Origin: an uncultured Gordonibacter sp. | Lineage (GTDB): Bacteria > Actinomycetota > Coriobacteriia > Coriobacteriales > Eggerthellaceae | DNA length: 43,866 bases | Direction: 5' to 3' | Assembly (NCBI GenBank): GCA_904420575.1 | Contig: CAJFVW010000040.1 | Span: 1 to 43,866, forward strand | Shown: in pieces, positions 4,784 to 15,362 of the stretch | Layout of the letters: each line of letters starts with the position of its first letter | How positions within the stretch are numbered: the first letter of the stretch is position 1 | Notes under the pieces: generated by a model | What the model was told of the DNA's origin: nothing | The model's database searches: none | Seen by the model: the letters and a program-made list of their open reading frames with translations, nothing else | Program-made: the position numbers and the translations under genes

Positions 4784-5010
4784 ATTCTGTTTCAGGGCGA
4801 GGTGGAAATCCTCACTGGCGGTAAGCGGGAACCCGGCACGGCCGGCACCCCGCGAGTCCGCGACCCTGATGCTTGTCGTCGTCCCGGCCGGCAGCGTTTG
4901 GCGGACGGGTCGCGCAGGCCGCACGAGCGGCCCGCGCGCGGCGAGGGCATGAGGCTGATCCGGTGAAATTCCGGAACCAACGGTCACAGTCCGGATGGAA
5001 GAGGCAGAGT
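4784..5010 (+). ncRNA. FMN riboswitch (RFN element)
   Basis: Conserved RFN blocks appear in order: CAGGGCGAGGTGGAAATC, CACTGGCGGTAAG, GAGTCCGCGA, then CTGATCCGGTGAAATTCCG, ACGGTCACAGTCCGGATGG. The closing P1 helix is ten base pairs (including G-U) between 4784-4793 and 5001-5010. One internal arm (about 4870-4945) is long and GC-rich, as is often seen at this variable position. It binds FMN and, with the downstream terminator, should switch off ribU-ecfA1-ecfA2-ecfT when flavin is plentiful. Confidence 0.95.
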
Positions 5011-10639: not shown

Positions 10640-10759
10640 GACGATCCTTCCTCGAACGGTTGCAGATGCTGGTAGCGTACCACACTGCCCTGCGTCCAAT
10701 CGGCCCGACCGGCCCTTTTTCACCAAGTCGATGGTCTTTGCCGACAGCGTTTTTGCGGG

Positions 10760-10900
10760 TGGACAAAAATGCGCCAATTCTTTATTACCGTATGCGAATA
10801 ATTTTGCCCACGCTCATTTAAGCAGGCTTTATTGGGGCAGGGACCGAAGAAGGCGGCTCCGCATTCTCTCAAATCCAAAGAATGGAGCCCTTTTTGTCCA
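10760..10900. repeat. 141-bp element with inverted ends, left copy
   Basis: The left end reads TGGACAAAAATGCGCCAATT and CTTTAT (10760-10785). The right end, read on the minus strand from 10900, begins TGGACAAAAAGGGCTCC and continues ATTCTTTGG. The two ends are thus imperfect inverted repeats of about 27 bases bounding 141 bp. A related element of 140 bp lies at 12051-12190 on the other side of the nuclease-like gene. No ORF lies inside. Confidence 0.75.
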
Positions 10901-11096
10901 CGATGCTAGGGCTTGTGCTAGGATGAGTCCGCGAAACCCTCTTTCCTCCTGCACGCGTTAGGATGAGACGACGACCCTGTTCATCTCGCATACCACAGCA
11001 GCGGAATGCTGGCGATCGGGACGGTTCGATGCGCTGCTTGGCGGACCCTCGATCACTCCGAAGTATCGGCCGGCCGGCTCCGCCACCGTCGGAAGG

Positions 11097-12086
11097 ATGG
11101 CCAGCCTGCTCGCGTTCGATCGCCTGGGGACCACCTGCAAAGAAGCGCTGCTCTTCGACGGCGGCAACCCCGTCGGAGCTGCCGCTAACAAGCCGTACGC
11201 GCATGAAGTCCGAGAGGCAAGGGCGGGCGCGCTCGCCTTCGCTTCCAGCCCCTTGCATGTGATGGTAGCCGGCAAGTCGCTGGTGAATCCCGTCCGGGAT
11301 TCCGTTTGCCACCTCTGTTCCACCGGACTGCCCTCGGGTTCTTTCGTTCGCGTTAGCGACGGCTTGCTCCTATGCTCTCCCGAACTGTGCTTCCTGCAGA
11401 TGGCTGCTCTCATCCCCTTTCACGCGCTCGTGAAACTGGGCTTCGAGCTTTGCGGGCTCTATACGTTGCAGCCCGACGGTCGCGCAGAATACCAGCGAGT
11501 GCTGCCCCCGACAACGGTGAGCGCGCTCTCGGCATACCTCGAGCGACGGCCAAGGGCCACCGGCGTGGCAACAGCCCGCAAAGCGCTCCGTTACGTGGCC
11601 GTCGCTTCAGGATCCCCCATGGAAACCGCGATGGCCGTCATACTTTGCCTTCCGCTGCGCCTCGGCGGTTACGGCCTGCCTCTTCCTCGCATGAACTACC
11701 GCATCGACGCGCCGAGGAGCAAAGGCCATGGCTGGGAGAAAAGTTACTACCTTTGCGACCTCTATTGGCCCGATGCCCACATAGGCGTCGAATACGACAG
11801 CGACCTGGAACACACCGGCCCGATCCGCATCGCCGAAGATGCGCGGCGGCGCAACGACCTCGCAAGCCGTGGAATCACGACCATCACCGCGACGCGCGAG
11901 CAGGTCATGGACGGAGAGGGATTCGACCGAATCGCCCGCCAGCTCGCGAAAAGGCTGAACGTGCGCATCAGAAGCGAACGGGGATGGAACCTTGACGCAC
12001 GGCAGCAGCTTTTCCGTTCGCTCGTCACCATGAAAGACGTCGAGGCAAGTTGGACAAAAACGCGCCGATTCTTTATATGCAAGTAA
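11097..12086 (+). CDS. Predicted PD-(D/E)xK nuclease-fold protein (DUF559-like C-terminus)
   Basis: 329 residues from ATG 11097; no good ribosome binding site is visible, so the start is uncertain. The N-terminal ~160 residues include a SSPLHVMV segment and the block SGSFVRVSDGLLLCSPELCF. From ~172 the pattern SPMETAMAVIL, then YLCDLYWPDAHIGVEYDSD, then RNDLASRGITTITATREQV resembles the MTES_1575/DUF559 (Vsr-like) nuclease fold, with Glu176, Asp221, Glu232 and Asp234 as candidate catalytic residues. I recall related proteins as a multi-copy Eggerthellaceae family of unknown role, but cannot verify that here. The last codons (WTKTRRFFICK) lie inside the right-hand inverted-repeat element. The N-terminal layout might suggest an AbiEi-like antitoxin or restriction role, which is speculation. 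Confidence 0.65.
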   Translation: MASLLAFDRLGTTCKEALLFDGGNPVGAAANKPYAHEVREARAGALAFASSPLHVMVAGKSLVNPVRDSVCHLCSTGLPSGSFVRVSDGLLLCSPELCFLQMAALIPFHALVKLGFELCGLYTLQPDGRAEYQRVLPPTTVSALSAYLERRPRATGVATARKALRYVAVASGSPMETAMAVILCLPLRLGGYGLPLPRMNYRIDAPRSKGHGWEKSYYLCDLYWPDAHIGVEYDSDLEHTGPIRIAEDARRRNDLASRGITTITATREQVMDGEGFDRIARQLAKRLNVRIRSERGWNLDARQQLFRSLVTMKDVEASWTKTRRFFICK

Positions 12087-12190
12087 AAATAATCATGGTC
12101 GCTCTTTGATGACCAGGCCTTTCTGAAAACAGTGTGCGGGCAACGCTTCCTGCAGCGTGAAAATCTACGGAATCGCGCCATTTTTGGCCA
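12051..12190. repeat. 140-bp element with inverted ends, right copy
   Basis: The left end TGGACAAAAACGCGCCGATT, then CTTTAT (12051-12076), differs from the left element's end by two bases over 26. The right end on the minus strand starts TGGCCAAAAATGGCGCGATT. Interiors of the two elements are diverged but share blocks in the same order (ATAAT, GCTC, CAGGC-TT). The left end contributes the final codons and stop of the nuclease-like gene. It also resembles a -35/-10 pair (TTGGAC, 16 bases, TTTATA). Confidence 0.75.
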
Positions 12191-12491
12191 CAACGATATC
12201 GTTCGAGCGAGAATCCGGGCTCTCGCAGGCACAAAGCTGCCCCGGCGCGAGTCGGGGCAGCGAGCGCCTTCTTCGCAACCGGGGCTGCGGGCGCTTCATC
12301 CCGGCATGCACGGGGTCCGCGGGCGCTTTCGTTCGCGAGCTGCACCAGGATGGGGGGCGCTTCCATTTACCGGCATGTACAGGGGCCGCGGACGCCAACT
12401 TCCTTTCCTCGTGGACCGAGGCAGGAGAGGTTCTCAAGCTGGCACATGGATCGGCAATGCTCCTTCCGGACGTGCACCAGAGCTGGAGGGG
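12191..12491 (+). repeat. Degenerate GC-rich repeats downstream of secDF
   Basis: No gene is supported. Units resembling GGGGTCCGCGGGCGCTTTC and GGGGCCGCGGACGCC alternate with CGGCATGCAC/CGGCATGTACA, a degenerate tandem arrangement like the tract at 8751-8990. Short open frames here are all low-complexity. Confidence 0.5.
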
Positions 12492-15362
12492 TCATTTCCT
12501 TTTCGAACGCTTCCCGCGTGGGGCCTTTGAATGCTTGGAGGGCTCGGGCGCGGTGCGCTTGGCCGCAGCCGGCGTGGAAGGCTGGGGCTCGCCCGGATCG
12601 GAGGCTGCCGAACCGGGAACCGTCGAACCGGACGCGCCCTCCCCGTCCGTCGCCGCCGCGTCCTGCTTGCCGACCGCCGCCGCGTCCTGCTTGCCGGCCG
12701 CCGTCGGTTCCTGCTTGCCGACCGCCGCCGCAGCCAGAACCTGCATGCCCGCGGCCTTGCCGCTTGCGCCCTTCCCGCCGGAAGCCTTCGCGGCCGGCGC
12801 CTTCCCGCGTGCCTTCGCGGCCGGCGCCTTGCCCACGGGAGCCGCCGCCGGATGGGCGAACTCGAAGCGGCCGATCTCCGGGCCGTACTTCCTCGCCAGC
12901 TTGGCATAGCGCGGCTCGCGCGTCTTCCACATGGAATACAGGGGAACCGCTATGGCGATGGACGAGTACGAGCCGCACACCAGGCCGATGGCCATGGCGA
13001 ACGCGAAGTCCTTGAGGGTCTCGCCGCCGAAGAACAACATGGCGAGCACGGGGATGAGCGAGGTGAGCGTGGTGTTGATGGTGCGCACGAGCACCTGGTT
13101 GATGGAGTGGTTCGCCATGGTCATGAAGGTGCACTTGATGTCTTCGCCCTTCATGTTGTCGTTGATGCGGTGGAACACGACCACCGTGTCGTAGAGCGAA
13201 TAGCCCAGAATGGTGAGCAGCGCGGCGATGGTGTTGGGGTTCACCTCGCGGCCCACGAGCGCGTACACGCCCATGACCAGGACAAGGTCGTGCAGGAGCG
13301 CCACGATGGCCATGATGCCCATCTTGTATTCGAAGCGGATGGCAATGTAGACGATGATGAGCACGATGGACACCAGGAACGCGATGAGCGACGACTGGAT
13401 GACCGAGGCGCCCCAGTCCGGCCCGATGGTGGTCACCTCGAAGCTGTCCGTGGAAAGGCCCAGGTCGTCGGCCACTTGGTTCGCTCGCGCCGTGGCTTCT
13501 TCTGCGCTCGTCGTGGTCGTGCGCACCAGGAAGCCCTCTTCGCCGCTCGCGTCGGTCGTCTGGATGACGGCGTCCGGCTCGCCCGCCTGGTCGAAAGCGG
13601 TGCGCATCTGCTCGGTAGTCACGTCCTCCGTCCCATGGAACGCCACGGACGTGCCGCCCACGAACTCGATGCCGAAGTTCAAGCCCCGCACTCCCACCAC
13701 TACGAACGAGGCGGCAACGAGCACGGCCGCCACGCCCAGGAACACGCGCCGGTGCCCCAGGAAGTTGATGTCGTGCTTGATGAACTTGCCCCGCACATGC
13801 CGCGCGCGCTGCGCAGCCTCTTCGCCGGCCTGCCCGTCCTTCGCCTCGGCCACCCGCTCGCTCTCGACGGAATCCATGGCCAGGCCCACTTCGGCCTCGG
13901 CCGTGGTGGTCCCTTCGGCCACGGCAAGCGCCTCGTAGTCCTTGGCCGCCTCAAGGCTGTCGCGCACGCCCCAGAAGCCGGGGTGCTTGGCGATGGAGCG
14001 CGGGGCGAGCAAGCGGATGAGGGGCGCCTTGAACAGCAGCATCATGACGATGTCGCACACGATGCCGAGCGCAAGCGTCAGGCCGAAACCCTTCACGGAG
14101 GCCGACGCCAGGAAGAACAGCGAGAGCGCGCTCACAAGCGTCACCAGGTCGGCGTCGACCGACGTCACGATGGCGTGCTTGACGCCCGTGATGGACGCGG
14201 CCCGCACGCTGCGGCCCATGCGTATCTCCTCCCGGAAGCGCTCCATGGTGAGGATGGACGAGTCCGCCGCCATGCCGATGGTGAGCACGATGCCCGCGAT
14301 GCCGGCGAGCGAAAGGCTGAACAGCCCGAACGCCGAAAGCGCCGCCAGGATGCCCAGGTACAGCACGGCGAACACCGCCATGGCAGCAGCCGTGACCAGG
14401 CCCAGGCCCTGATAGAACACCAGCAGGTAGAGCATGACCACCGCAAGGCCGATGCCGGCCACCACGACGCCGGAAGCCAGCGCGTCCTGGCCAAGCGTGG
14501 GACCCACCACCTGGCTTTGCGCGTATTCGAAGCTCACGGGCAAAGAGCCGCTTTCCAGCACGGTCTGCAGCGACTTCGCCTCTTCGAGCGTGTAGTTGCC
14601 CGTGATGGAGACGTCGCCGTCCAGGATCTCCGACTGCACGGCGGGGGCGAACTGCACCTCGTCGTCCAGGATGATGACGATCTTGCCCTTCGTGGACACC
14701 AGGTCGGTGGTGGCCTCGGCGAACGCCGCCGTCCCTTCCGCATCCAGCCGCACGTTCACGGCGTAGTCGGTAGACGTGTCCTTGGGCTTGCCGATGGTGA
14801 CGTTCGTGATGTTCTCGCCGGTGACCAGCGGCGTGTAGGTGCCCTCGGCCACTTCGAGATGGACGGTCTTGCCCGAAGGGAACTTGTTGCCGAACTCGTC
14901 GGTGATGGTGCCCTCTTCACCGAACTGGCCGTTCTCGATCTGGCTCTTCACCTCTTCGTCGGTGAACGAGTCGAGCCGCGCGAACGTGAGCTTGCCGGTC
15001 TTGCCGATGGTCTCGAGCGCCTTCTCGGGGTCGGACAGACCGGGGATCTGCACAAGGATCTGGTTCGTGCCCTGCACCTGCACGACCGCCTCGGACGCAC
15101 CGAGGGCGTTGACGCGGCTTTCGATGATGGCGCGGCTTTTCTCCATGTCCTCGGTCGACACGGCCGCGCCGTCCTCGCCCTTCGCAGTGAGCACCACCGA
15201 AAGGCCACCTTGGATGTCGAGGCCTTGGTTGATCCTCTCCGCCGGCGGGGTGAAAAGAAACACCGAGCCGATGACGAGCAACGTGGTGAGGACGAGCAGC
15301 CACAGGTTGCGGCGGTCGGCCGAGCGATTGGCCTTTTTCTTCTTCTGCGGGGCAGCAGCCAT
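12492..15362 (-). CDS. secDF: Protein translocase SecD-SecF fusion
   Basis: 956 residues. The SecD part (1 to ~500) has the first membrane helix near 20-38, the motif GLDIQGGLSVVL, the large external P1 domain and five further helices. The SecF part starts near 528 with a helix after FIKHDINFLGHRR, the motif GIEFVGGTSV, and five more helices. SecDF uses the proton gradient to pull exported proteins through SecYEG. The last ~130 residues are an Ala/Gly/Lys/Pro-rich cytoplasmic tail with a tandem AAAVGKQD-type repeat, absent from typical SecDF. ATG 15362 is preceded by GAAGGAGAAGG. MFS gene 15476-16897 lies 113 bases upstream on the same strand. Confidence 0.95.
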   Translation of the reverse strand: MAAAPQKKKKANRSADRRNLWLLVLTTLLVIGSVFLFTPPAERINQGLDIQGGLSVVLTAKGEDGAAVSTEDMEKSRAIIESRVNALGASEAVVQVQGTNQILVQIPGLSDPEKALETIGKTGKLTFARLDSFTDEEVKSQIENGQFGEEGTITDEFGNKFPSGKTVHLEVAEGTYTPLVTGENITNVTIGKPKDTSTDYAVNVRLDAEGTAAFAEATTDLVSTKGKIVIILDDEVQFAPAVQSEILDGDVSITGNYTLEEAKSLQTVLESGSLPVSFEYAQSQVVGPTLGQDALASGVVVAGIGLAVVMLYLLVFYQGLGLVTAAAMAVFAVLYLGILAALSAFGLFSLSLAGIAGIVLTIGMAADSSILTMERFREEIRMGRSVRAASITGVKHAIVTSVDADLVTLVSALSLFFLASASVKGFGLTLALGIVCDIVMMLLFKAPLIRLLAPRSIAKHPGFWGVRDSLEAAKDYEALAVAEGTTTAEAEVGLAMDSVESERVAEAKDGQAGEEAAQRARHVRGKFIKHDINFLGHRRVFLGVAAVLVAASFVVVGVRGLNFGIEFVGGTSVAFHGTEDVTTEQMRTAFDQAGEPDAVIQTTDASGEEGFLVRTTTTSAEEATARANQVADDLGLSTDSFEVTTIGPDWGASVIQSSLIAFLVSIVLIIVYIAIRFEYKMGIMAIVALLHDLVLVMGVYALVGREVNPNTIAALLTILGYSLYDTVVVFHRINDNMKGEDIKCTFMTMANHSINQVLVRTINTTLTSLIPVLAMLFFGGETLKDFAFAMAIGLVCGSYSSIAIAVPLYSMWKTREPRYAKLARKYGPEIGRFEFAHPAAAPVGKAPAAKARGKAPAAKASGGKGASGKAAGMQVLAAAAVGKQEPTAAGKQDAAAVGKQDAAATDGEGASGSTVPGSAASDPGEPQPSTPAAAKRTAPEPSKHSKAPRGKRSKRK
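12652..12723 (-). repeat. 24-bp tandem repeat coding for the SecDF tail
   Basis: Three 24-base units starting at 12652, 12676 and 12700 (core GTCCTGCTTGCCG, part of a fourth unit following) encode the repeated GKQDAAAV peptide. A second 27-base-period repeat, GCCTTCGCGGCCGGCGCCTT, occurs at 12784-12803 and 12811-12830 and encodes the KAPAAKA repeats. Confidence 0.85.

Follow-up and report, generated by a model that had tools for sequence, protein, structure and literature searches.

A putative Vsr/DUF559-type nuclease gene of Coriobacteriia bordered by private, dispersed elements with inverted arms

The window analyzed in this study is a stretch of 43,866 nucleotides from an uncultured Gordonibacter sp. 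It contains an open reading frame (ORF) of 329 aa (11097-12086, plus strand) that encodes a putative nuclease of the Vsr/DUF559/EDxHD type, as judged from family profiles, conserved residues and structural models. On either side, the ORF is bordered by a short element with inverted arms, to which no strand is assigned. The left element (10760-10900) is 141 bp long and comprises an outer-left arm TGGACAAAAATGCGCCAATTCTTT (10760-10783, plus strand), an inverted arm that reads TGGACAAAAAGGGCTCCATTCTTT on the minus strand (10877-10900) and a central motif AGCAGGCTTTATT (10821-10833, plus strand), a degenerate version of the family consensus GACCWGG-N-GTTT. The right element (12051-12190) is 140 bp long, with a left arm TGGACAAAAACGCGCCGATTCTTT (12051-12074, plus strand), an inverted arm TGGCCAAAAATGGCGCGATTCCGT as read on the minus strand (12167-12190) and the central motif GACCAGG (12111-12117, plus strand), a 7-mer enriched across element families. 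All four arms were located by pattern matching, and the left arms of both elements share 92% identity over 26 nt. The first-pass annotation of this DNA had described four motif copies arranged as two inverted pairs, forming two homologous elements of almost equal length around the ORF, and our pattern search confirms this arrangement. An inner ATTCTTT, which it also considered conserved, is retained as ATTC, while the remainder reads TTT or CGT.

The motif TGGACAAAAA, with at most one mismatch, occurs four times in the window, all at these two elements (expected 0.98; one of 100 shuffles reached four). In the 2.96-Mb genome of the window, the 24-nt arm pattern with up to three mismatches gives six matches and the reversed pattern none. 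We rejected chance repeats as the source of the arms on such pattern counts and on the controls given below. The element family of the window comprises six complete copies in this genome (G000), two beside the gene and four on their own (C98:5909, C129:10287, C37:20516 and C60:13645, full pairs of 140, 140, 140 and 141 bp, respectively), so that all copies are 140 or 141 bp long. A GACCAGG-related central motif was read by eye in all six copies, on either strand. Identity within the family falls to 69%, as might be expected if it were old and perhaps no longer active. The window elements fold modestly better than shuffles (z between -0.9 and -2.7), and Rfam returned no RNA family match in six loci at E 0.1. 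Elsewhere in the window, an FMN riboswitch scores above the Rfam gathering score (4784-5010), and a 48-nt repeat with three copies at 24-nt spacing (12633-12728) lies in the C-terminal tail of a neighboring SecDF-like ORF.

The ORF runs into the right element, the first 36 bp of which provide its final 11 codons and the stop codon, as the first-pass annotation had noted in more general terms. This overlap looks incidental, as many homologues stop near there or slightly earlier and the tail of the window protein (residues 314-329) is predicted to be disordered (pLDDT < 50). At the other end of the gene, a homologous N-terminus ('TLFISHTTAAECW') extends upstream in frame from 10977 without an ATG, GTG or TTG, and an ATG at 10963 lies in a different frame from this N-terminus. 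Judged from sequence, the start in the region 10963-11097 may be of an unusual kind, or a frameshift or an error in the assembly may be present there, and the window copy of the gene may be damaged at its start.

For the window protein alone, Pfam returned nothing at E below 0.1. A Pfam search with 30 family members detected MTES_1575 in 23 and DUF559 in 15 of them (best E 1.7e-7), and a family profile search matches the EDxHD homing endonuclease I-Bth0305I (PDB 3r3p, E=0.001). AlphaFold2 models were obtained for the window protein (pLDDT 82, pTM 0.84) and for a homologue with 37% identity (pLDDT 93, pTM 0.91). Foldseek matches to solved structures are non-significant by E-value (best 0.2, with a probability of 0.82-0.85 for I-Bth0305I), and the fold call thus rests on sequence profiles and conserved residues. 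Against viral models, the homologue model has a very-short-patch-repair endonuclease, DUF559 proteins and a homing endonuclease as top matches (E about 0.001-0.005, probability 1.0). Five residues (E176, D221, E232, H239 and D248, with codons in 11622-11840, plus strand) are invariant in all 30 members. Four of them, E176, D221, H239 and D248, fit by their order, without structural superposition, the Vsr-type set of E, D, H and D residues reported for VsrA (PMC12907096). Conservation is lower in the N-terminal half (mean pairwise identity of 27% versus 37%), as would be expected of a specificity region. The profile, structural and residue matches support an assignment of the family to putative endonucleases of the Vsr/DUF559/EDxHD type with an extra N-terminal region, and they uphold the DUF559-like nuclease proposed in the first-pass annotation.

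Members of this family are present in 29 of 41 related genomes, with up to 14 per genome, and are annotated as ‘hypothetical protein’ in public records where checked. The named relatives are nearly all from Coriobacteriia, apart from one record titled Clostridiales and one titled Actinomycetes. A survey of 397 genomes from the phylum places the strongest matches (E down to 1e-124) in Coriobacteriales only, and the best matches outside Coriobacteriia are partial (E 2e-25 at best). With the queries used, no relatives were found in phage records or viral contigs, and a phage origin of the family was rejected on this basis.

For most members, one flank or both flanks carry an inverted-pair element of about 85-240 bp. 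An inverted pair spanning 80-230 bp is present in at least one flank of 60% of the family genes versus 4.7% of control intervals taken from the same loci, and a repeat common to the upstream and downstream flanks is found for 37.5% of the genes versus 2.1% of the controls. When mismatches were scored more loosely, a flanking inverted pair was found for 103 of 138 genes; elements were detected by ungapped scoring, which probably misses some. In the complete genome G004, an element lies beside all 11 genes examined. Most of the other five family genes in the genome of the window have elements as well, some of them multicopy, and a genome of the same genus (G001) contains none of the elements of the window genome. 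The unit of element, gene and element without a transposase, as seen in the first-pass annotation, is therefore real and recurs across Coriobacteriia. Beyond the reach of that annotation were the private arm of each gene, the dispersed multicopy elements and the common central motif. The arm sequence agrees between both flanks of one gene and differs among genes, even inside one genome: for 12 genes with elements on both sides, the upstream and downstream arms score 15-32 against each other, compared to a median of 7 and a maximum of 13 between different genes. Arm and protein similarity are weakly correlated overall (rho 0.22, reached in none of 2000 permutations), and the correlation is clear only among close homologues. 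In four loci of Coriobacteriaceae/Atopobiaceae (L137, L141, L143 and L144), each arm is itself palindromic and thus closer to the REP form; several elements there are shorter, about 92-94 bp, and that of L137 is longer.

We used eleven elements of the complete G004 chromosome as queries and found further copies for several families. One 26-nt arm pattern has 34 sites in this chromosome, which form 17 pairs of 130 bp, except for one of 129 bp, with no solo arms and no control matches. Two of these pairs are located at the gene and fifteen elsewhere. In Paraeggerthella, a 142-bp family has many copies in the genomes of each of two species. The copies occupy many unrelated intergenic sites, as judged from open frames rather than annotation, and no obvious target-site duplication was seen in the flanks viewed, which were read without statistical scoring. 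The G004 chromosome also carries 126 scattered palindromes TGTTTCACGTGAAACA (the ParB site parS, at most one mismatch), often paired at a distance of 34-35 bp, compared to 5-14 in three relatives. Five of the 17 copies of one G004 element family (L182, L185, L186, L218 and L220) have such a palindrome 20 bp past the same end.

An alignment of 34 Paraeggerthella copies of the same length resolves the arms into TGTCAAAACG-nnn-GAGTTTTGC around an asymmetric core that holds TGACCWGG. The two most variable arm positions are paired in 17/34 and 15/34 copies, about half the time, and the arms hence look like duplex binding sites and not like a hairpin that is kept. Hairpin selection as the main constraint is unsupported in the family tested, given these non-compensatory changes and the modest folding scores. 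Across families, ACCWGG occurs in 31 of 96 element centers (4.8 expected) and GACCWGG in 20 of 96 (1.4 expected). Since CCWGG was first spotted by eye, an unguided ranking of 7-mers in the centers is the fairer test, and GACCAGG and GACCTGG lead this ranking. CCWGG is also the Dcm/Vsr context of E. coli (PMC12907096), a likeness that may be a coincidence.

The gene locus is syntenic between two Paraeggerthella species, with 92% identity over 11 kb, and we take the gene to be stationary on this ground. The comparison of empty and filled element sites that the first-pass annotation had suggested was run between these two species and yielded no clean empty site: some ten sites checked in the sister species carried an element, and of about 25 Paraeggerthella sites the majority were occupied, rearranged or at the end of a contig. 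The few Paraeggerthella loci that differ are not cleanly alignable. Without a clean empty site, no movement was seen, and the syntenic gene locus together with the mostly filled sites in the sister species points to slow spread. At two loci, one species has one element family and the other species a different one in the orthologous intergenic region (L228 1425-1720 versus L343 200-640, and L252 versus L351), which shows turnover without revealing its mechanism. An apparent collapsed remnant of the other element family is present at an orthologous intergenic region in G041. At one further element site (L249 versus L240), the flanks are 99.7-99.9% identical between two species, while their other flanks are about 88-97% identical.

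We consider it somewhat probable that the stationary nuclease gene mobilizes, or once mobilized, its private elements in trans. The locus would then be the ‘master’ gene of a private family of miniature dispersed elements, with a Vsr/DUF559/EDxHD-type endonuclease gene that stays in place and is bordered by copies of an element whose two inverted arms, specific to that gene, enclose an asymmetric core with a GACCWGG-like center. This computational analysis shows the flanking elements, their private arms, their dispersal as intact pairs, the common center, the invariant catalytic-type residues and the synteny of the gene between two species, whereas binding, cleavage, the cleavage site and dispersal driven by the protein are steps that we infer. 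The protein, probably as a dimer, would bind its own element as duplex DNA at both arms and nick or cut it, perhaps near the CCWGG-like center, upon which host repair or replication would place a copy of the entire pair at another intergenic site.

The protein might instead be mainly a DNA-binding regulator or a chromosome-organizing factor, with the elements as operators or anchor sites and a nuclease core that is rarely used or vestigial. AbiEi-type antitoxins do bind inverted repeats and regulate themselves (PMC7319586), and the fold weakly resembles that of Rv2827c (1zel, probability 0.18). The non-compensatory spacer changes by which the arms behave as duplex sites, the maintenance of element sites between species and the position of some G004 copies 20 bp from a ParB-type palindrome would also agree with such a role. 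However, the catalytic-type residues do not vary among the 30 members, and what is copied is an entire 130-bp pair, conserved core included, which goes beyond the needs of an operator. The elements also lie on both sides of the gene and in tens of copies with no obvious regulon in an informal look, so that we regard this explanation as unlikely.

Three further explanations are much less probable. MITEs typically have inverted ends and occur as small copies scattered over a genome, and the elements could be MITEs moved by an ordinary insertion-sequence (IS) transposase, with the nuclease gene adjacent by chance or hitchhiking. In G004, however, every one of the 34 arm sites falls within a 129-130-bp pair, leaving no longer element with such ends; a MITE of an IS is thus rejected for this chromosome. 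About a dozen genes per genome would each require their own lost IS, and the association with the nuclease family is far above control, all of which renders a MITE origin highly improbable. Nuclease-based defense or discrimination, in which the elements would mark self DNA or serve as decoys, seems very improbable too, if by a trace less so. Vsr/PD-(D/E)xK relatives include restriction-type enzymes and PADLOC gave matches to mREase_II and HEase, but these are marginal (E about 0.001), neither a methyltransferase gene nor another partner adjoins the gene within the window, and the search described above found no relatives in phage records or viral contigs. We know of no role of gene-specific dispersed element families in defense, and we found no evidence for the defense-related system suggested in the first-pass annotation. 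Lowest in probability is a homing-like spread, in which the nuclease would cut element-free sites and break repair would copy the element, as for free-standing homing endonucleases. The best solved relative is indeed the EDxHD homing endonuclease I-Bth0305I, which dimerizes on a long target (PMC3943268), but the copies are found at many unrelated intergenic sites and not at one allelic site, and it is the element that multiplies and not the gene.

Mobilization in trans by a stationary gene, the reading we prefer, has its closest parallel in REPIN-RAYT systems, in which a gene is bordered by inverted copies of a repeat private to that gene and inverted doublets are dispersed mostly outside genes (PMC2817692, PMC3116915). 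The likeness lies in the fixed gene flanked by inverted repeat copies, the private dispersed family and the dispersal as inverted doublets (17/17 pairs in G004). The differences are that the enzyme is of the Vsr/DUF559/EDxHD type (Y1_Tnp Pfam matches in 0/30 members), that the arms begin with TGG, TGTC, TGCA and others instead of a GTAG/GGAG-type head, that they are longer, bipartite and, in Paraeggerthella, non-compensatory, that a GACCWGG-like center is common to elements of different genes and that up to 14 gene copies occur per genome, most with their own element. Membership fails because there is no HUH transposase and no GTAG-type head and the arm changes are non-compensatory. With Vsr endonucleases, including the DUF559 VsrA of Caulobacter, the family shares the nuclease core and the E, D, H, D residues (PMC12907096), and the CCWGG-like element center resembles the CCWGG Dcm/Vsr context; in contrast to them, it has an extra N-terminal region, is multicopy and tied to dispersed repeats, and no linked cytosine methyltransferase was seen in the window. 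Among solved structures, I-Bth0305I matches the catalytic domain most closely in both sequence and fold, whereas the family gene is free-standing and not in an intron or intein. Like MITEs, the elements are short, non-coding and dispersed and have inverted ends, but no IS or transposase with these ends was found at the G004 arm sites and the nuclease gene is their constant neighbor. The genome-level design is of a known kind, REPIN-RAYT-like, while the machinery differs. With the terms used, a search of the open-access literature found no prior description of the system.

Tentatively, and with slightly less than even confidence, we suggest that the REPIN-RAYT problem was solved a second time and independently: Vsr-like nicking nucleases would spread private miniature elements in trans by nicking at a CCWGG-like center, and a dozen such pairs would evolve next to each other in one chromosome. 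If true, a nuclease family annotated as hypothetical would be linked to how dispersed repeats came about in an entire class of gut bacteria. The REPIN-RAYT lifestyle, with a fixed gene and private moving repeats, would then have arisen more than once with unrelated enzymes. The many private gene-element pairs per genome form a natural series for reading how such proteins recognize their arms, and the system points to an undescribed route for the spread of small DNA elements.
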